Position numbers and translations under genes: made by a program. A stretch of DNA of 64,000 bases from Alcaligenaceae bacterium CGII-47 (GTDB lineage Bacteria; Pseudomonadota; Gammaproteobacteria; Burkholderiales; Burkholderiaceae_B): assembly GCA_019166125.1 (NCBI GenBank), contig JAHTBO010000002.1, positions 188,997 to 252,996 of the forward strand. The letters are read 5' to 3'. Position 1 is the stretch's first letter. Every line of letters starts with the position of its first letter. Below are positions 2,754 to 63,086 of this stretch, one piece after another. The notes beneath the pieces were generated by a model. It saw nothing but the letters and a program-made list of their open reading frames with translations, was not told the DNA's origin and searched no databases.

Positions 2754-5700
2754 GATGCGCTCCCATTGTCCGAATCAGTCGTATCCGGATGAGACGGGAC
2801 ATGCGGCGGTTGATGGCCTAATAGTCTGGGCTTAGTCTTGAACACCTTGAGAATCACCACAAAGAAAGTCGGGACAAACAATACAGCCAGCGGCGTCGCA
2901 GCCAGCATGCCTCCCAGCACCCCCAAACCGACGGCGTTCTGACTGGCAGCGCCCGCACCACTGGCCAGCACCAAAGGCACCACACCCAGGATAAAGGCAA
3001 AGGAGGTCATCAGAATCGGCCGAAAGCGCAGGCGTGCCGCCTCAATGGCCGAATCCACCAAGCCCCCGCCGCTGGCGTAGAGATCCTTGGCAAACTCGAC
3101 AATCAGGATGGCGTTCTTGGCCGAAAGACCGATAACGGTCACCATCCCTACCATGAAATACACATCGTTAGCCTTGCCCATCAAGCTACTGAGCATAACA
3201 GCCCCCAACATGCCAAGCGGTACGGCCAGCATCACGGACAAGGGGATAGCCCAGCTCTCGTAAAGCGCAGCGAGCACCATAAAGACGACCAACACCGATA
3301 GACCCATAAGAATGGAGGTCTGATTGCCTGCCTGGATTTCTTGATAGGACAGGCCTGTCCACTCGTAGCTCAGGCCCGGAGGTAGCTGTGTCACCAGGCG
3401 CTGCATCTCGGCCATCGCCTCACCCGTTGAGTAACCCGCCCCTGCCGCACCGCCGATTCGCACGGATTCATAACCGTTATAGCGGACAATCTGCACCGGC
3501 CCCTGCGTCCATTTGAGCGTCACAAAGGAAGACAAGGGCACCATCCCGCCGCTGGTGTTACGGGCGTTGAGCTTAAGCACATCATCCGCATTCATGCGGG
3601 CGTCCGCATCGGCCTGAACCCAGATGTTTTGTACCCAGCCCATATTGGTAAACTTCCCCACATACGCGCCACCCATAGCGCTTGAGATCAATTGTGCGGC
3701 CTCAGAAAAGTTCACGCCTAGGGCAGCCGCCTTATCACGATCTATTTCCAGTCGCAATTGAGGGCCCGGCCCCAAGCCGGTAATGCGTGTTTGTGCCACC
3801 ACCGAGCTCTGGGAGGCCAACTGCAGCAGTTGCTGCGCGCCAGCAAGCAAGGCTTCATGGCCTACGCCCCCGCGATCCTCCAAACGCATATCAAAACCCG
3901 AGGCATTACCCAGGGATGAAATAGCGGGTGGCACAATCGAAATCACCATCGCATCAGGCAGACCAAAGAGCAGCTTGCCCATCGCCACACCAGAGATGGC
4001 TTGCGCCGAATCCCCGGGTGCCTTGCGCTCGGAAAAATCTTTAAGCGGCACAAAGGCAATCGCAGAATTCAGACCATTACCGTTAAAACTAAAGCCTTGA
4101 ACCGCAATGATATCAGCGACCTGAGGTAGCGACTGGAAATAATGCTCGACCTGCTCGATGATCTGTATGGTTCGATTCGATGTCGCGCCAGCAGGCAACT
4201 CGATATTAGCAATCACGTAGCCTTGATCCTCGTCCGGCAAAAACGACGTCGGTAGACGCACATACATCCAGCCGAGCACCACGACCATCATGAGGAACAC
4301 CAGCATCATGCGTCCACCGCGCTTGAGGCTGCCAGTCACCCAGTTTGTGTATCCGTGCGTTGTACGGTCAAAGGATCGGTTAAACCAGCCAAAAAAACCT
4401 TTTTTGGCCGCATGATGTCCCTTGGGGATGGGCTTGAGGATCGTCGCGCACAACGCCGGCGTAAAGCTTAAGGCAAGAATGGCTGAAAACAGAATCGAGA
4501 TCGCCATCGCGACTGAGAACTGCCGATAGATCACGCCCACTGACCCGGACATGAAGGCCAGAGGTAAGAATACCGTGGTCAATACCAATGTAATCCCTAC
4601 AATTGCACCACTGATCTGTGGCATCGCCTTTTTAGTCGCTTCCTTGGGAGATATGCCTTCTTCAGCCATAATCCGTTCGACATTCTCAACCACCACGATG
4701 GCATCATCGACCAAAATACCAATCGCCAGCACCATGGCAAACATGGTGAGAACATTAATCGAGAACCCTAGGGCTAGCATCACTGCGAACGCCCCCAGGA
4801 TGGCCACGGGCACCACCAAGGCAGGAATCAAGGTATAGCGTATGTTCTGCAAAAAAACGAACATTACTAAAAACACCAATAGCATGGCTTCGAGCAGGGT
4901 ATGGACGACTTGCTCGATAGATATCTCGACATAAGGCGAAGTATCGTAAGGGATGGCGTAGGTGATGTTATCGGGGAAAAATTTCGATAACTCAGCCATT
5001 TCAGCCTTGACCAACCTGGCGGTCTCTAGGGCATTAGCAGTGGGCGTAAGCGACAGGCCAAATGCCGCAGTGGGTTTACCATTCAGCCGGGCACCGAACT
5101 GGTAGTTGTCCGAGCCCATTTCAACGCGTGCCACATCACCAATTCGTACGGCGGAACCATCCTGGTTCGCACGCAAAATAATATTTGCAAACTCCTCGAC
5201 GGTAGCGAGCTGTCCATTGACCACAATCGGTGCGGTCACCCGCTGAGAGGCTGGATTGGGCGGCGAGCCTAGAATGCCACCCGACACGACCATATTCTGA
5301 TTACTAATGGCCGCGGTGACATCGTTCATGCTGAGCTGATAGCCCACGAGCTTTTCAGGATCGACCCAGACACGCATGGCATGTCCCGCAGCAAAAAGCT
5401 GGAATTGACCGATGCCCTTGACACGTGAGATAGGGTTTTGGATATTACGCGTAATGTAATCTGCCAGTTCAGTCTGATCTAGCGAGCCGTCCTTGGACGA
5501 CACGGTGACGAGCATCAGAAACCCTGAGCTGGCCTGGCTAACCTTTAAACCTTGCTGGACGACTGCGGCAGGTAATTTAGCCGTTACATTGGACAGACGA
5601 TTCTGTACGTCAACCTGGACCAGGTCCGCATCTGAACCCGGCTCGAAGGTCACCGTAATCTGTGCCGTACCATAGGAGTCGCTAACCGACTCGTAGTAGA

Positions 5701-57567: not shown

Positions 57568-59223
57568 ATGATTATCCTCAAGAACGTGACCTTGCGTCGC
57601 AGCAGCAAAGTATTGCTGGACCAAGCATCAGTCACGATCAATCCTGGCGAAAACGTCGGTCTGGTTGGGCGCAACGGCGCCGGCAAATCATCTCTGTTTG
57701 CGGTGCTGAACGGCACGCTCAACGAAGACGGCGGCGAATTTTCCATCCCGACGCAATGGCGCATGTCGCAGGTCGCTCAAGACATGCCCGAGACCGACCA
57801 GAGCGCCACGGATTTTGTTATCGCGGGCGATACGACCTTGCTTGCCGCACAGGCCGAAGTCACCGCATCTGAAGCCAGCGATGATGGGATGCGAATGGCT
57901 CACGCCTATATGGGGCTACAGGATGCGGGGGCACACGATGCTCCCGCACGGGCACAAGCACTCATTCTTGGTTTAGGTTTCAGCGTCGCTGAGCTTGACC
58001 GACCGGTCAATAGCTTCTCGGGTGGCTGGCGTATGCGTCTGCAACTGGCGCGCGCATTAATGTGCCCATCCGACCTTCTGTTGCTCGACGAGCCTACCAA
58101 TCACCTAGACCTGGATGCTCTGGTTTGGTTAGAGGCCTGGCTAAAACAATACGCTGGCACGATCATCGTCATCAGCCACGACCGTGAGTTTCTGGACGCG
58201 ATCACCAACGTCACAATACATATTGATCAAGGCAAGCTCATCCGTTACGGTGGCAACTACAGCAAGTTTGAGGACATGCGCGCCGAGCAGCTCGTGCTGC
58301 GCCAGGCGGCACAAGCCAAGCAACAAGAAAAAGCAGCCCATCTGCAAAAATTCATCGATCGCTTCAAGGCCAAGGCAAGTAAAGCCAAGCAGGCGCAAAG
58401 TCGTGTCAAGGCACTCGAGCGGATGGAAAAAATCGCACCGATCCTAGCGGATGCTGAATTCCAATTCGAATTCAAGGCGCCCTCTAACTTGCCCAACCCA
58501 ATGCTGTCGATGTCCGACGCGAGCTTTGGCTACCCACCGCCTGAGGACGCACCGGCTGGCACGCTGCCGACCGTCATCGTGCAACACGTCAATCGCTCGG
58601 TGTTGGCCGGTCAACGCATCGGCATCCTGGGTGCCAATGGTCAGGGCAAATCCACGCTGGTCAAAACCATTGCAGGTTCATTGCAAGCAATCGCGGGCGA
58701 GATCATTACCGGCAAGGGTCTGAATATCGGCTATTTCTCACAGCAGGAACTGGACGTATTGCGCCCTACCGACACGCCCCTAGAGCACATGATCCGCCTG
58801 GTCCGCGATACGCCAGCCAATGGTCGACCCAGCGCGAACGACTGTCGCGAGCAGGGTCTACGCAATTTTTTGGGTACGTTTAACTTCAGTGGTGATATGG
58901 TCAAACAGACCGTTGGCAGTATGAGTGGCGGCGAGAAAGCACGTCTCGTCCTATGCATGATCGTCTGGCAGCGCCCCAACCTGTTACTGCTTGATGAGCC
59001 GACGAATCACCTGGATCTGGCTACGCGCGAGGCCTTGAGCATCGCCCTCAATGAGTTTGAAGGATCCGTCATGCTGGTGAGCCACGACCGTGCCCTACTG
59101 CGTTCAGTATGCGACGAGTTCTGGTTAGTCGCGCGCGGCGGCATGACGGACTTTGAGGGCGATCTGGACGACTACCAGGTCTACCTGCTTGACGAAGCCC
59201 GTCGTCAACGGGCGGCTGCGTAG
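57568..59223 (+). CDS. ABC-F ATPase, YheS-like, short C-terminus
   Basis: A 551-residue protein with two ABC domains. Domain 1 has GRNGAGKSSL, FSGGWRMRLQLARAL and [19 protein letters not shown]. The linker has KAKASKAKQAQSRVKALERME, and domain 2 has GANGQGKSTLV, MSGGEKARLVL and [11 protein letters not shown]. The text follows E. coli YheS almost throughout, but that protein is about 637 residues with a coiled-coil tail of about 90. Here the chain stops just after DLDDYQVYLLDEARR. The last 19 bases overlap the convergent monooxygenase gene, so the tail seems to have been lost, perhaps by the arrival of that gene. No Shine-Dalgarno sequence is visible before the ATG. Confidence 0.9.
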   Translation: MIILKNVTLRRSSKVLLDQASVTINPGENVGLVGRNGAGKSSLFAVLNGTLNEDGGEFSIPTQWRMSQVAQDMPETDQSATDFVIAGDTTLLAAQAEVTASEASDDGMRMAHAYMGLQDAGAHDAPARAQALILGLGFSVAELDRPVNSFSGGWRMRLQLARALMCPSDLLLLDEPTNHLDLDALVWLEAWLKQYAGTIIVISHDREFLDAITNVTIHIDQGKLIRYGGNYSKFEDMRAEQLVLRQAAQAKQQEKAAHLQKFIDRFKAKASKAKQAQSRVKALERMEKIAPILADAEFQFEFKAPSNLPNPMLSMSDASFGYPPPEDAPAGTLPTVIVQHVNRSVLAGQRIGILGANGQGKSTLVKTIAGSLQAIAGEIITGKGLNIGYFSQQELDVLRPTDTPLEHMIRLVRDTPANGRPSANDCREQGLRNFLGTFNFSGDMVKQTVGSMSGGEKARLVLCMIVWQRPNLLLLDEPTNHLDLATREALSIALNEFEGSVMLVSHDRALLRSVCDEFWLVARGGMTDFEGDLDDYQVYLLDEARRQRAAA

Positions 59224-60515
59224 CTACCGAAGCGCGCTGGTCGCTGCAGTCCCAAATGTCCCCGTAAGGTGCTTGCGTCATATTCCCGCCGAAACAGGCC
59301 ACGCGCCTGCAGCACAGGAATGACATGCTCGACAAAATCCTCGATACTACTGGGCAGGGACGGCGGCATCAGATTAAAGCCATCTGCTCCCTCGTTACGA
59401 TGCCAACGCGCCATCTCGTCGGCAATCCCTTCAGGTGTCCCAACCATCGTGCAATGCCCGCCTCCTGCTGCAAGCCTACCGAGCAATTGCCGTAAAGTGG
59501 GCCGCTCGGCCTCGATGATCCGCAAAATCGTGGCATAGCGCCCCTTAGGCCCCGTAAATACCTCTAGGGAAGGCAATGCTGGCACAGGCGCGTCCAGCTC
59601 CCACTGCGTGCAATCCTGTCCAATATACAGACTCAGTTGACGCAATGCATCGTCCGACGGCAGCAACTCGTCGAGTTCGCGTTGCTTGGCCCGGGCCTCC
59701 GCCTCAGTCGATCCCACGTAGGTGACCAGGCCGGGCATAATAGGAACTGGGTCGTGGCGCCCCGCCGCGCGTACCCGCTGCTTGATATCACGATAGTAGG
59801 CCTGCGCCGAGGATAAGTCGTAGGCGACCGCGTAAATGGCCTCTGCCCGGCGCGCGGCCAGGTCTCTGCCTTCCTCTGAGGCGCCCGCCTGAAACAACAC
59901 GGGATGGCCCTGGACTGGGCGCGGTACGGTCAGCGGACCCTCGACACGGAAATGCGCCCCTTTGTGGTCAATGGTCCGTACCTTCGAAACATCAACGTAA
60001 GCGCCCTGTCGGTCGATTTGCAGCGCATCGTCTGCCCAGGAATCCCAAAGGCGCAGAACCACATCGATAAATTCCTCTGCACGGGCATAGCGCCATGCGT
60101 GATCAGGCATCGCGTCAAACCCATGATTGCGAGCCTCAGCGTCGAACATGGACGTCACGACATTCCAGCCGATCCGCCCGCGCGAGATATGGTCTAGCGA
60201 TGCGATCAGCCGCGCCGCATGAAAAGGCGTGTAAAACGTACTGGAGATCGTGCTGATCAAGCCAATATGTTCGGTTGCACGACTCACCGCACTCAGGGTG
60301 GTGAGCGGCTCTAAGTACCAGCGCGGCCCATCGGCCACATGATCTGCCGACTGCCCATCAGCGAAAAATATCGCGTCAAGCCTGCCGCGCTCTGCCGTCC
60401 TCGCCAGGCCCTCATAGTAGGAAATATCACCCAGGCGCTCGGCTGAGGAATCAGGATGGCGCCACGCCGCCTTATGGTGGCCACAGCCAAAAATGAACAG
60501 ATTCAGATGCAGCAT
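59205..60515 (-). CDS. LLM-class flavin-dependent monooxygenase (NtaA/SnaA/DszA type), TPP-riboswitch operon
   Basis: A 436-residue FMNH2-dependent monooxygenase of the luciferase-like TIM-barrel superfamily. The opening LHLNLFIFGCGHHKAAWRHP, LARTAERGRLDAIFFADGQSA, EPLTTLSAVSRATEHIGLISTISST, FNAAR-like FHAARLIASLDHISRGRIGWNVVTS, and QAGASEEGRDLAARRAEAIY are the NtaA/SnaA/DszA/MoxC signature. It needs a separate flavin reductase, not encoded here (the nitroreductase at the left end is 60 kb off). The ATG overlaps the SDR stop (TGATG). Being in a TPP-controlled mRNA, it is proposed to oxidise thiamine, its pyrimidine or thiazole part, or a breakdown product; the substrate is unproven. Confidence 0.9.
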   Translation of the reverse strand: MLHLNLFIFGCGHHKAAWRHPDSSAERLGDISYYEGLARTAERGRLDAIFFADGQSADHVADGPRWYLEPLTTLSAVSRATEHIGLISTISSTFYTPFHAARLIASLDHISRGRIGWNVVTSMFDAEARNHGFDAMPDHAWRYARAEEFIDVVLRLWDSWADDALQIDRQGAYVDVSKVRTIDHKGAHFRVEGPLTVPRPVQGHPVLFQAGASEEGRDLAARRAEAIYAVAYDLSSAQAYYRDIKQRVRAAGRHDPVPIMPGLVTYVGSTEAEARAKQRELDELLPSDDALRQLSLYIGQDCTQWELDAPVPALPSLEVFTGPKGRYATILRIIEAERPTLRQLLGRLAAGGGHCTMVGTPEGIADEMARWHRNEGADGFNLMPPSLPSSIEDFVEHVIPVLQARGLFRREYDASTLRGHLGLQRPARFGSYAAAR

Positions 60516-61297
60516 CAGTTTTTCACCAAGCCACCGTCCACCACCAAATTCTGCCCCGTTACCGCACGCGACCAGGGCGAGGCAAAAAACAGGATGGCAT
60601 CGGCAAACTCTGCTGGGGTCGTTACGCGACGCAAGGGCGTGCCTGCAGCGATCATATCGAACACCTCGATGGGCGTAGCCGCTGACGCATCCGTGGTTCG
60701 CAACAAGCCACCGGAGACCATATTGACCGTAATGCCCTGCGGACCAAGGTCGTGCGACAAGGTGCGCGTGAGCGACAGCAATGCTGCCTTGGCGGCCGTG
60801 TAATCATGGTAAGGCACCACCGGGTTTTGAAATAGATTTGTACCTACATTGATGATACGTCCGAAGCCTAGCTCGGCCATGCCAGGTGCCGTTGCCTGGG
60901 TGGTATTCAAGGCCCCACGTACGATCCCCTCCATTTGTTGCTGAATCGCCGCCCAGGTCAAGTTATCAGCGTGCGCTCGCAAGTCTCCGTTAAAAGAAAA
61001 TGCAGGCAGTGCGTTATTGACCACTGTGGTGATGGGCATGCCAAAGTGCGCATGTGCCTGTTCGACCAGCGCCTGGACCGCGTGCGCATCCGTCACATCG
61101 GCCTGCACGGCAATCGCGCGCTTCGGTGCGGATGCCGCAAGCATCTGCGCGGAATGTTCGCTATGCAGATAATTGACGACGACGCGCGCGCCCTCGCGCA
61201 AAAAGGCACGTGCCAGATGCTCGCCCAGGCCGCGACCAGCACCGCTCACCAAGACGAGCTGTTGATCGATAGGAAGAGCAGAATCAGGTTGTGTCAT
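60515..61297 (-). CDS. SDR family oxidoreductase, TPP-riboswitch operon
   Basis: A 260-residue classical short-chain dehydrogenase. The cofactor motif is LVSGAGRGLGEHLARAF; a basic/neutral segment VVVNYLHSEHS suggests NADP or NAD choice is open. NNALPAFSF is in the place of NNAG, and the active-site Tyr and Lys are in HDYTAAKAALLSL. The residue 13 before the Tyr, normally Ser, is Thr (INVGTNLFQN). Start ATG 61297 has CGAAGG 6 bases upstream; that ribosome-binding site pairs with an anti-SD 7 bases away, under control of a TPP aptamer. It is first in a two-gene operon. Reaction unknown; conversion of an aldehyde or alcohol in thiamine salvage is a guess. Confidence 0.9.
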   Translation of the reverse strand: MTQPDSALPIDQQLVLVSGAGRGLGEHLARAFLREGARVVVNYLHSEHSAQMLAASAPKRAIAVQADVTDAHAVQALVEQAHAHFGMPITTVVNNALPAFSFNGDLRAHADNLTWAAIQQQMEGIVRGALNTTQATAPGMAELGFGRIINVGTNLFQNPVVPYHDYTAAKAALLSLTRTLSHDLGPQGITVNMVSGGLLRTTDASAATPIEVFDMIAAGTPLRRVTTPAEFADAILFFASPWSRAVTGQNLVVDGGLVKN

Positions 61298-61303
61298 AGC
61301 AAG

Positions 61304-61323
61304 CCTTCGAAAGAAACGAAGGG
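61304..61323 (-). promoter_or_regulatory. Expression platform: anti-SD/SD hairpin of the SDR mRNA
   Basis: On the minus strand CCTTCG (61317-61322) pairs perfectly with the ribosome-binding site CGAAGG (61304-61309) around a 7-base loop. The same anti-SD, as CCCTTCG, can instead pair with CGAAGGG (61362-61368) inside the aptamer, freeing the ribosome-binding site. A 6-bp hairpin (61335-61340 with 61344-61349) sits between. Confidence 0.65.
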
Positions 61324-61356
61324 TTGCTCGCATGCGGCGTCTTACGCCGGATCGCT

Positions 61357-61443
61357 GACATCCCTTCGCCAGTATGAGCTGGATCAGGTTCGACGGGTGT
61401 TATCTCAGTCCCGGGCTATTTGTCGCCCAGGGCACCCCGTGTC
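61357..61443 (-). ncRNA. TPP (thiamine pyrophosphate) riboswitch aptamer of SDR-monooxygenase operon
   Basis: The minus strand carries the TPP-aptamer conserved blocks in order: GGGGTGCCC (61430-61438), CTGAGA (61403-61408), an ACCC segment, GAACCTGATC (61382-61391) and GCGAAGGGA (61361-61369). P1 is formed by GACA (61440-61443) and TGTC (61357-61360). TPP binding is expected to lower expression of the genes below. A loop of moderate length separates CTGAGA from GGGGTGCCC, the optional P3a-type arm. Confidence 0.93.
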
Positions 61444-61453
61444 GCTAACTCAA

Positions 61454-61462
61454 ACCATAGCA
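61454..61462 (-). promoter_or_regulatory. Extended -10 promoter of the SDR-monooxygenase operon
   Basis: TGCTATGGT on the minus strand is an extended -10 element (TG, one base, TATGGT); no good -35 element is seen. The expected start point near 61447 is just before the aptamer, which supports the assignment. Confidence 0.5.
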
Positions 61463-61507
61463 CATCGGCGCAGCACCGCCACGAAATAAGTGATGAATTA
61501 AACATTA

Positions 61508-61537
61508 TTGACAAGATTCAACGGCGTGACCTAAGCT
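61508..61537 (+). promoter_or_regulatory. Promoter of the symporter gene
   Basis: A perfect TTGACA (61508-61513) and TAAGCT (61532-61537, weak) are 18 bases apart. The predicted start near 61544 lies immediately before the second aptamer. Confidence 0.55.
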
Positions 61538-61546
61538 TACGAGCTG

Positions 61547-61634
61547 TTCCTGGGGGTGCCCGATTCGGGCTGAGATTTCGCAAATGGTTGCGCTAACCCT
61601 TTGAACCTGATCCGGATAATGCCGGCGAAGGGAA
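61547..61634 (+). ncRNA. TPP riboswitch aptamer of the SSS symporter gene
   Basis: The plus strand has GGGGTGCCC (61553-61561), CTGAGA (61570-61575), AACCC, GAACCTGATC (61603-61612) and GGCGAAGGGA in order. P1 can form between TTCC (61547-61550) and GGAA (61631-61634). That GGAA is part of GGAAGG (61631-61636), the ribosome-binding site 7 bases before the ATG, so closing P1 would hide the site directly. Confidence 0.93.
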
Positions 61635-61643
61635 GGTCAATTC

Positions 61644-63086
61644 ATGCTCACAAGTTCGACGACGATTTTTTGGCTGCTATTTTTCTCTGGCGGCTTTGCT
61701 CTTGCGGGCGTGCTCTATGCTCGGCGTGATCGAGGCGGCCTCGAGGACTATATCGTGGCCCGCGGAAGCCAGAGCACAAGCGCAACCATCCTGACTTTAC
61801 TGGCCAGTGGCTTAGGTGCGTGGATCCTATTCGCACCGGCGCAGGCTGCCACATGGGGTGGCCTGGCTGCCGTCATCGGCTACGCACTGGGAGCCATGTC
61901 ACCGCGACTACTGATGATTCCGCTGGGTCGTCGCATGCGCGAACTCATTCCCCAGGGCCATACCTTGACCGAGTTCGTGATTGTCCGCTATGGGCGATCC
62001 ATGTACGGCCTGACCCTGCTCATCATGCTGTTCTACATGTTTATCGCACTCACTGCCGAGATCACTGCCATCGCAAAGCTCGTCGCACTGCTCGCACCCG
62101 TACCACTATGGGTGACAGCTGGCATCGTCATGGGCGCGACCTTGCTCTACACCTCGTACGGCGGAATACGCGCATCGATCTTTACCGATAAGGTCCAGAT
62201 GCTGGTTATTATGCCGCTGCTGGCCTGGCTGGTGTGGCTAGGCTGGCAGGCGGTTGGAGGGATTCAGCCTGCCCTGGTTGGGCTACAGGTAAGCGCACCA
62301 CAACTGCTCAGTCTGTCTGACCCCACAGGCATCAAGGCTGGCTTGACGTTTTTCGTCGCGATTCTCCTGACTGGACTATTCCATCAAGGCAACTGGCAGC
62401 GGGTCTACGCGGCGCATGACACACGCGCCATGCATCGGGGATTCCTGCTCGGTGGAATACTCGTTGCACCGGTCATTTTTATCATGGGTCTGTTTGGCCT
62501 CGCCTTTGTCGGTCTAGGACATCGTGGCGACAGCTCGGTGGCGCTGTTTGCCGTCATCATGCCCCATATCCCAATTTGGTTTGCAGTCAGCCTGATCCCG
62601 CTCGGACTGGCTCTGGTGATGAGTACTGCCGATACCGTCATCAGTGCGGTCTCCAGCCTGATTGCCGTCGACGCTCGCCGCCTGCTACCCCAAGCCAGTA
62701 CAAGGAGCTTAATGGCCTTATCTCGGTGGCTAATTTTTATGCTGGCCATTCCCGTGCTGATTGCTGCCGCCCAAGGCTATAGCGTGCTATATCTGTTTCT
62801 GCTGGCAGACCTGCTGTGTTGTGCTGCTGCATTCCCGGTGTTTTTCGGCTTGTTCAATGCCCGCCATGATGGGCTAAGCGCCGTGGTCAGTACCGTTTGC
62901 GGGCTGATTGCCGGCCTGACATTATTCCCTGCGCCAGGCGCTCGACTGGAATACTTGCTGGAATCTTTTTTGCTCGCCGCGTTGGTTCCGCTCGTTATAT
63001 CACTGATGGGAATATGGCTCAGGCGTGCGGGTTCGCACTTCGATTTCGCACGTCTGGGTGTGGCAATCCAGAGCCTGGATGATTGA
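61644..63086 (+). CDS. Sodium:solute symporter (SSS family), TPP-regulated, putative thiamine/precursor transporter
   Basis: A 480-residue inner-membrane protein with about 13 transmembrane helices and the SSS (PanF/PutP) pattern: DYIVARGSQSTSATILTLLASGLGAWILFAPAQAA (cut), HTLTEFVIVRYGRSMYGL, LLYTSYGGIRASIFTDKVQMLV, HQGNWQRVYAAHDTRAMHRG and the STADTVISAVSSL segment near residue 330. The TPP riboswitch directly upstream predicts a thiamine-related substrate; an SSS transporter (ThiV) has been proposed from riboswitch genomics elsewhere as a thiamine-precursor transporter. The divergent monooxygenase-SDR operon is the probable metabolic partner. It converges with the LysR gene, 15 bases between stops. 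Confidence 0.9.
   Translation: MLTSSTTIFWLLFFSGGFALAGVLYARRDRGGLEDYIVARGSQSTSATILTLLASGLGAWILFAPAQAATWGGLAAVIGYALGAMSPRLLMIPLGRRMRELIPQGHTLTEFVIVRYGRSMYGLTLLIMLFYMFIALTAEITAIAKLVALLAPVPLWVTAGIVMGATLLYTSYGGIRASIFTDKVQMLVIMPLLAWLVWLGWQAVGGIQPALVGLQVSAPQLLSLSDPTGIKAGLTFFVAILLTGLFHQGNWQRVYAAHDTRAMHRGFLLGGILVAPVIFIMGLFGLAFVGLGHRGDSSVALFAVIMPHIPIWFAVSLIPLGLALVMSTADTVISAVSSLIAVDARRLLPQASTRSLMALSRWLIFMLAIPVLIAAAQGYSVLYLFLLADLLCCAAAFPVFFGLFNARHDGLSAVVSTVCGLIAGLTLFPAPGARLEYLLESFLLAALVPLVISLMGIWLRRAGSHFDFARLGVAIQSLDD

Follow-up and report, generated by a model that had tools for sequence, protein, structure and literature searches.

A TPP-controlled symporter of the SSS family is already known as ThiV, described in SAR11 for the thiamine pyrimidine precursor 4-amino-5-hydroxymethyl-2-methylpyrimidine (HMP) (PMC11452348, PMC2211319). 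The locus reported here lies in Alcaligenaceae bacterium CGII-47 (contig JAHTBO010000002.1, positions 188,997–252,996; this stretch of 64,000 nt is referred to as the window), and carries a symporter gene of the same family facing, across two thiamine pyrophosphate (TPP) aptamers, genes for a short-chain dehydrogenase/reductase (SDR) and an NtaA-type monooxygenase. The three genes very probably serve TPP-controlled acquisition of the pyrimidine half of thiamine. The symporter resembles ThiV in its family, its upstream TPP aptamer and a genome context of thiE and thiG with no thiC match, a likeness of family and regulation rather than of compared sequences. It differs in its link to an SDR–monooxygenase pair, of which the consulted portions of the ThiV papers make no mention.

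The salvage route of TenA (thiaminase II, or aminopyrimidine aminohydrolase) would likewise turn AmMP and similar pyrimidine vitamers into HMP, but it is hydrolytic, belongs to an unrelated family and has no match in the window's genome, whereas the pair described here is proposed to depend on O2 and flavin. The monooxygenase shares the TIGR03860 family with nitrilotriacetate (NTA) monooxygenase NtaA and EDTA monooxygenase EmoA, whose solved chains (3sdo, 5dqp) are 40% and 34% identical to it; TPP control distinguishes the window enzyme from both. RcaE, a riboflavin lyase with 33% identity, removes a side chain oxidatively from a vitamin at a C–N bond (PMC12746152, as far as its available text goes), but has a catabolic role and acts on another vitamin. 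The best-scoring solved sequence (312 bits) is CmoJ/YtnJ of S-alkylcysteine salvage, which according to the portion of the source seen frees an alkyl group as aldehyde (PMC10863075), but its substrate carries a C–S sulfoxide bond and it works with CmoO.

Among the open-access papers listed in searches aimed at the locus, judged mostly by titles and abstract openings, none connects this monooxygenase or SDR to TPP riboswitch control. A comparative study of thiamine regulons from 2002 is said to have named ThiV, and may list the SDR. The name oarX, which we take to have been used for a TPP-linked reductase, occurs in none of the five papers listed in one of these searches. One candidate paper was discarded, as its available text deals with the TPP riboswitch of an alga and with dimethylamine monooxygenases (PMC9870897). 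Since the TPP-controlled SSS symporter is known, only the oxidase half, that is, the SDR–NtaA pair under TPP control, looks new.

Organisation of the locus

The initial annotation of this DNA described two complete TPP aptamers placed back to back about 100 bases apart, one leading overlapping genes for an SDR and an NtaA/SnaA-type monooxygenase, the other leading an SSS symporter gene. This layout was borne out. Both aptamers cover RF00059 positions 1–105 of 105 above the gathering cut-off of 54.3 bits, they are separated by 92 bases, and all three proteins exceed the cut-offs of their family models (Table 1). The SDR stop and the NtaA start share one base (TGATG, minus strand). The two aptamers are the sole Rfam matches in the window at gathering scores, and no further TPP match appeared at E up to 0.001 anywhere in the genome, an assembly of 3.45 Mb in 41 contigs with 99.99% completeness.

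Table 1. Positions in the window of the genes, aptamers and predicted expression platform
Feature	Position	Strand	Assignment
SSS symporter gene	61644–63086	+	PF00474, 65.5 bits (cut-off 22.8); ThiV-like by regulation
SDR reductase gene	60515–61297	-	NF006393/PRK08642, 425 bits (cut-off 292)
NtaA/DmoA-family FMN-dependent monooxygenase gene	59205–60515	-	TIGR03860, 532 bits (cut-off 279.7)
TPP aptamer of symporter gene	61542–61650	+	cmscan RF00059, 74.4 bits, E 8.4e-13
TPP aptamer of SDR–monooxygenase operon	61344–61449	-	cmscan RF00059, 61.9 bits, E 9.9e-10
Predicted expression platform, SDR leader	61297–61368	-	two mutually exclusive folds; complement counts across leaders

An upstream ATG at 61333, which opens the longest SDR frame, was set aside for the likely start at 61297, which is preceded by a Shine-Dalgarno-like GAAGG. 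The symporter also scores 53.6 bits against TIGR02119 (PanF), under the cut-off of 328. On the far side of the monooxygenase gene, a convergent ABC-F gene (57568–59223) overlaps it by 19 bases at the 3′ ends (59205–59223).

Thiamine pathway of the window's genome

The genome has no match to thiC (TIGR00190) or TenA (PF03070), while it does match ThiE (160 bits), ThiG (352 bits) and, twice, ThiD-type kinases (299 and 86 bits). Without a thiC match, the cell must obtain the pyrimidine (HMP) elsewhere, and the organism looks like an HMP auxotroph in which the thiazole branch is retained. The genome context thus supports the idea that the module supplies HMP, a building block with no visible synthesis in this cell. 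The initial annotation had left open salvage or detoxification of thiamine, of its pyrimidine or of its thiazole part; the idea of a module is supported, salvage is favoured over detoxification, and the list narrows to the pyrimidine part, because thiG, thiE and thiD are matched and neither thiC nor TenA is.

In a genome of the same genus (G002), thiC is flanked on either side by a block that is kept collinear in the window's genome (G000); the interval at that site is reduced from 4.2 kb to 1.4 kb in the latter, and thiC is missing. A tblastn search with E. coli ThiC over 36 kb around the syntenic site gave two chance-level matches elsewhere (24–39 residues, E at least 0.05). The second TPP-controlled gene of G002 encodes a CytX-like permease (TIGR02358, 229 bits, below the cut-off of 310). 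The window's genome has a second, weak ThiE-like match in a 414-aa frame (G000:C37:131143–131691, 81 bits, below the cut-off), and such a second match is common in relatives.

The module and thiC among relatives

The annotation's expectation that other genomes keep these genes with TPP aptamers proved correct, both in a set of 121 genomes (the window's own and 120 relatives) and in the wider scan described below. Near-complete NtaA orthologues occur in 25 of the 121, at 71–84% identity in the 24 besides the window's own, and every one of these 25 also has the symporter nearby on the same contig (66–81% identity in the 24 others). Conversely, 25 of 26 genomes with the symporter hold an NtaA orthologue of at least 71%, the exception being G080, with the symporter alone (62%). 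A further genome, G007, has an NtaA fragment of 165 residues (81% identity). Among the matches listed, aptamers are found on both sides in 21 of the 25 module genomes and on the symporter side only in G012, G013, G018 and G057. The SDR gene lies between the symporter and NtaA genes in 21 of 22 relatives for which stretches of 14–16 kb were examined.

Within the family (f1, 73 genomes), a thiC match is absent from 9 of the 25 module genomes (G007 counted) and from 4 of the 48 others (Fisher p 0.008, uncorrected for kinship, as are the tests that follow). When three genomes smaller than 1 Mb are omitted, absence among the non-module genomes falls to 1 of 45 (p 0.0002), and with four genomes with partial thiC counted as lost (module genomes G013 and G034; others G008 and G059) the value is 0.004. 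In G013, a two-contig genome with the module, the ThiC match covers only positions 214–423 in a 286-aa frame (G013:C1:261433–262077), which looks like thiC decay. In one relative with neither thiC match nor module (G036), a TenA match is flanked by two TPP aptamers on the same contig (G036:C205:25464–29047), perhaps a different pyrimidine salvage locus.

Wider distribution and phylogeny

A wide scan with the NtaA sequence as query, using one genome per species, was restricted to the best 80 loci, from which the following counts come. NtaA identity is 69–81% in 39 loci and at most 52% in the other 41. The 39 orthologue loci include Achromobacter, Candidimonas, Alcaligenes, Paenalcaligenes, Marinobacter, Halomonas, an Azoarcus metagenome-assembled genome (MAG), Rhizobium, Nocardiopsis, Kocuria, Cryobacterium and Micrococcaceae, and in 32 of them the enzyme pair is faced by a TPP aptamer. 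Ten of the 41 distant paralogue loci were tested, and nine had no TPP aptamer in the locus. The sole case with one is Peribacillus (L143), where it precedes an SDR–NtaA pair (46% and 50%) and thiC has no match in the genome. Of 43 genomes from the same family as this Peribacillus, no other has its NtaA at E ≤ 1e-120, which leaves one isolated case in Bacillota. A plasmid of Pseudochrobactrum (73%) and one of Rhodococcus (63%) also carry the order aptamer–SDR–NtaA. In a quick tree, the window, the 39 loci, the two plasmid rows and L143 form one clade of 43 rows (SH-aLRT 100), with L143 and L153 on long branches of unsure placement.

Gene order around the pair differs between hosts. In Alcaligenaceae and Marinobacter the symporter gene lies beyond the divergent aptamers, back to back with the pair, and in nine Halomonas loci it is convergent and follows NtaA, with its own aptamer at gathering score in eight (none in L140). 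No symporter orthologue was present within the stretch examined in the actinomycete and Rhizobium loci. The annotation also noted an absence of the usual thi genes, which is true of the stretch itself and untrue of some relatives. In two Marinobacter loci (L118, L119) thiG directly follows NtaA, with a thiC match absent from the genome of L118 and present in that of L119. In Cryobacterium (L138) the genes thiE, thiO (TIGR02352, 283 bits), thiS, thiG and thiF come after the pair, as do an aptamer-led transporter gene of PF09819 (a family that includes YkoE) and an ABC ATPase gene; thiC is not matched in this genome. In all, 8 of the 32 orthologue genomes searched have no thiC match (L117, L118, L129, L130, L138, L139, L144 and L163), some of the thiC-less genomes of the scan being MAGs or uncultured.

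Several further features were seen at these loci. In four Halomonas loci (L127, L134, L136 and L139) the module directly follows a tRNA array (about 4000–5000), which may be an insertion hotspot. In Alcaligenes sp. SORT26 the module is followed, some 1 kb further on, by an FMN riboswitch (L116:8244–8387, 117 bits). The SDR of Kocuria rosea (L163:5078–5974) matches the reference in two reading frames, perhaps owing to a frameshift or sequencing error.

Predicted riboswitch control

In the symporter leader, a Shine-Dalgarno-like sequence, AAGGGAAGG (61628–61636), lies inside the 3′ arm of the aptamer, 7 bases ahead of the ATG at 61644. In the SDR leader, the conserved 3′ arm of the aptamer, CGAAGGG (61368–61362), is complementary to CCCTTCG (61323–61317), and the CCTTCG within the latter can alternatively pair with the Shine-Dalgarno arm CGAAGG (61309–61304) directly before the SDR start. 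When the two exclusive folds are forced, their energies are -60.5 and -58.1 kcal/mol, a difference of 2.4 kcal/mol. No intrinsic terminator was seen in 61300–61660. This absence, with the pairing in the SDR leader, makes translation the likely level of control.

Leaders were compared from the window and from 25 of the 26 loci entered (L163 gave no start; the second-batch loci of the wide scan and L183 were left out). In 17 of the 26 leaders a stretch of 6 nt or more is exactly complementary to the aptamer arm, the commonest being CCTTCGCC, and the mean length is 6.6 nt against 4.5 nt in single-base shuffles. From the known riboswitch class we infer that expression is off at high TPP; TPP binding and repression at this locus are predicted from the folds.

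Enzyme families and chemical precedents

The AlphaFold2 model of the NtaA homologue (pLDDT 91.6, built from 43 aligned sequences) has the luciferase-like fold of the solved TIGR03860 members. It superimposes on NTA monooxygenase 3sdo with Z 49.5 (rmsd 1.9 over 389 residues, about 40% identity), on CmoJ 6ask with Z 47.8 (about 40% identity over the aligned part), on riboflavin lyase 5w4y with Z 46.5 (33%) and on 5dqp with Z 45.0 (34%). In the NtaA alignment, 37 positions set the clade apart, being conserved in 24 or more of the 25 members compared and in no more than 2 of 18 paralogues. A flavin reductase partner was not found among the window genes scanned beside NtaA, a scan that covered these neighbours and not the rest of the genome; the Rhizobium locus (L142) has, further downstream, a gene whose protein combines SIP and FAD_binding_9 domains.

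The SDR falls in the PRK08642 group, named 3-oxoacyl-ACP reductase. Its residues T153, Y166 and K170 are identical in all 40 aligned SDRs, so that the classical Ser-Tyr-Lys triad is altered, with Tyr and Lys kept and Thr at what we take to be the Ser position.

Reactions reported for the monooxygenase family, in the portions of the sources seen, are the conversion of NTA to iminodiacetate and glyoxylate (PMC3169409), the release of an aldehyde from alkylcysteine sulfoxide by CmoJ (PMC10863075) and the stripping of the ribityl chain from riboflavin by RcaE, giving lumichrome (PMC12746152). By analogy with these, which release a carbonyl or cut C–N oxidatively, the window enzyme may do the same. 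A reductase encoded on the same message would fit aldehyde removal.

Proposed route

When TPP is scarce, both riboswitches are predicted to leave the ribosome sites open, so that the three proteins would be made. The ThiV-like symporter would import a pyrimidine vitamer or thiamine itself. The monooxygenase, using FMNH2, may then oxidise the CH2 through which the pyrimidine is bound to N (or S), giving 4-amino-5-formyl-2-methylpyrimidine, much as glyoxylate is freed from an amine by NTA monooxygenase. The SDR would reduce the formyl compound with NAD(P)H to HMP. ThiD and ThiE would then build thiamine monophosphate from HMP and the thiazole of the ThiG branch. AmMP and FAMP, described as salvageable pyrimidine vitamers in the part of the source available (PMC10881298), are the first substrate candidates. 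Such a route would be an O2-dependent counterpart to the hydrolytic TenA route.

Several lines of evidence drawn from genome sequences support both the regulation and a role in supplying the pyrimidine; the substrate, the products and the direction of the SDR reaction we infer. Given that the locus serves acquisition of the thiamine pyrimidine, oxidation followed by reduction to HMP is about as likely as not, and the complete account, a TPP-repressed module that imports a vitamer, oxidises it and reduces the product to HMP, has roughly an even chance of being right.

A number of observations weigh against this account. Seven of the 39 orthologue loci have no enzyme-side aptamer: L108 and L110–L114 have one on the symporter side only and L137 has none, with the second aptamer of the Achromobacter loci L108 and L110–L113 not found even at E up to 0.05, and L114 and L137 searched at gathering scores only. 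The SDR gene is missing from three Achromobacter loci and from G012 (L072), so it is not indispensable. A thiC match above the cut-off is retained in 14 of the 25 module genomes of the family and in 24 of the 32 orthologue genomes of the wide scan, hence the module is often an addition and not a replacement. A thiC match is also absent from two of seven genomes that have a distant paralogue only, and because of these controls the wide-scan genomes do not by themselves show an enrichment of thiC loss. Strong TENA_THI-4 matches coexist with the module in G011, G027, G037, G045, G052, G054 and G096, and weaker ones (36–46 bits, above the cut-off of 22) in module genomes G010, G012 and G026. As to regulation, the pairing is not longer than in shuffles in 9 of the 26 leaders, and no sigma-70-like promoter was found in a scan of 61300–61660. 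The aptamer does not appear in the free fold of the symporter leader, for which reason the occlusion model there draws on the covariance match and its position.

Two matters touch on these observations. The module was considered as a replacement for TenA, for which mutual exclusion would be expected, and this was rejected as the two co-occur. The five Achromobacter loci L108 and L110–L113, which keep NtaA and the symporter-side aptamer and in three cases have lost the SDR gene, read as a decaying or re-regulated form of the module.

Alternative explanations

The monooxygenase might instead act as an oxidative thiaminase, cleaving the pyrimidine–CH2–thiazolium bond of imported, intact thiamine, with the SDR then making HMP. 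Cleavage would have a purpose because the cells seem to have no thiamine pyrophosphokinase and may not charge thiamine directly: PF04263 matched in none of 34 genomes, although this model matches just 7 of 14 controls and not E. coli. The riboflavin lyase of the same family, which cuts a vitamin at a C–N bond, provides a precedent. However, ThiK-type kinases (not searched for) together with ThiL would make TPP from thiamine, and cleaving thiamine in a TPP-starved cell pays only if the products are rejoined (the thiazole kinase ThiM was not searched genome-wide), so that this explanation appears unlikely.

Slightly less probable again is that the symporter provides the whole of pyrimidine uptake, as HMP itself, with the SDR–NtaA pair serving the thiazole branch or another task in TPP starvation, such as replacing ThiO/ThiH. 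SAR11 strain HTCC7211 is reported, in the portion of the paper available, to cover its thiamine requirement by taking up HMP, for which ThiV is the candidate transporter (PMC11452348), and the proximity of thiG to the pair in the two Marinobacter loci would agree with a thiazole role. Cryobacterium, however, has thiO, thiS, thiG and thiF beside the pair, yet no thiC match, and the actinomycete loci keep the pair with no symporter orthologue in the stretch examined.

A monooxygenase with a reductase is also a common pairing in detoxification, and the two enzymes could oxidise pyrimidine antivitamins (of the bacimethrin or oxythiamine type) that enter by the thiamine route. Expression predicted to be off at high TPP, and the association of the module with thiC absence in the family, fit supply better than defence, and make detoxification improbable. 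Finally, it is very improbable that the pair degrades, for example, a sulfonate or an amine under borrowed TPP control and stands beside a thiamine symporter by chance: the distant paralogues do occur in other contexts, nearly all of those tested without a TPP aptamer, but the TPP linkage of the pair holds in Pseudomonadota, Actinomycetes, one Peribacillus and two plasmids, with differing neighbours.

Implications

Many bacteria lack thiC alone, and what substitutes for it is often unknown. For this question the module offers a defined importer and enzyme pair, riboswitch control as a regulatory readout, and a list of host bacteria. A broader reading, which is doubtful, is that SDR–NtaA is an O2-dependent, ThiC-independent source of the pyrimidine that can stand in for thiC, with either some common metabolite or a widespread product of thiamine breakdown as the starting material for HMP. 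Its horizontal spread, on plasmids among other means, would then have allowed repeated loss of thiC in Alcaligenaceae, Marinobacter, Halomonas, Cryobacterium and Kocuria. If the proposed route is true, flavin monooxygenase chemistry would join vitamin B1 salvage, salvage by this route would depend on oxygen, and predictions of auxotrophy that rest on thiC, thiV and tenA would change.

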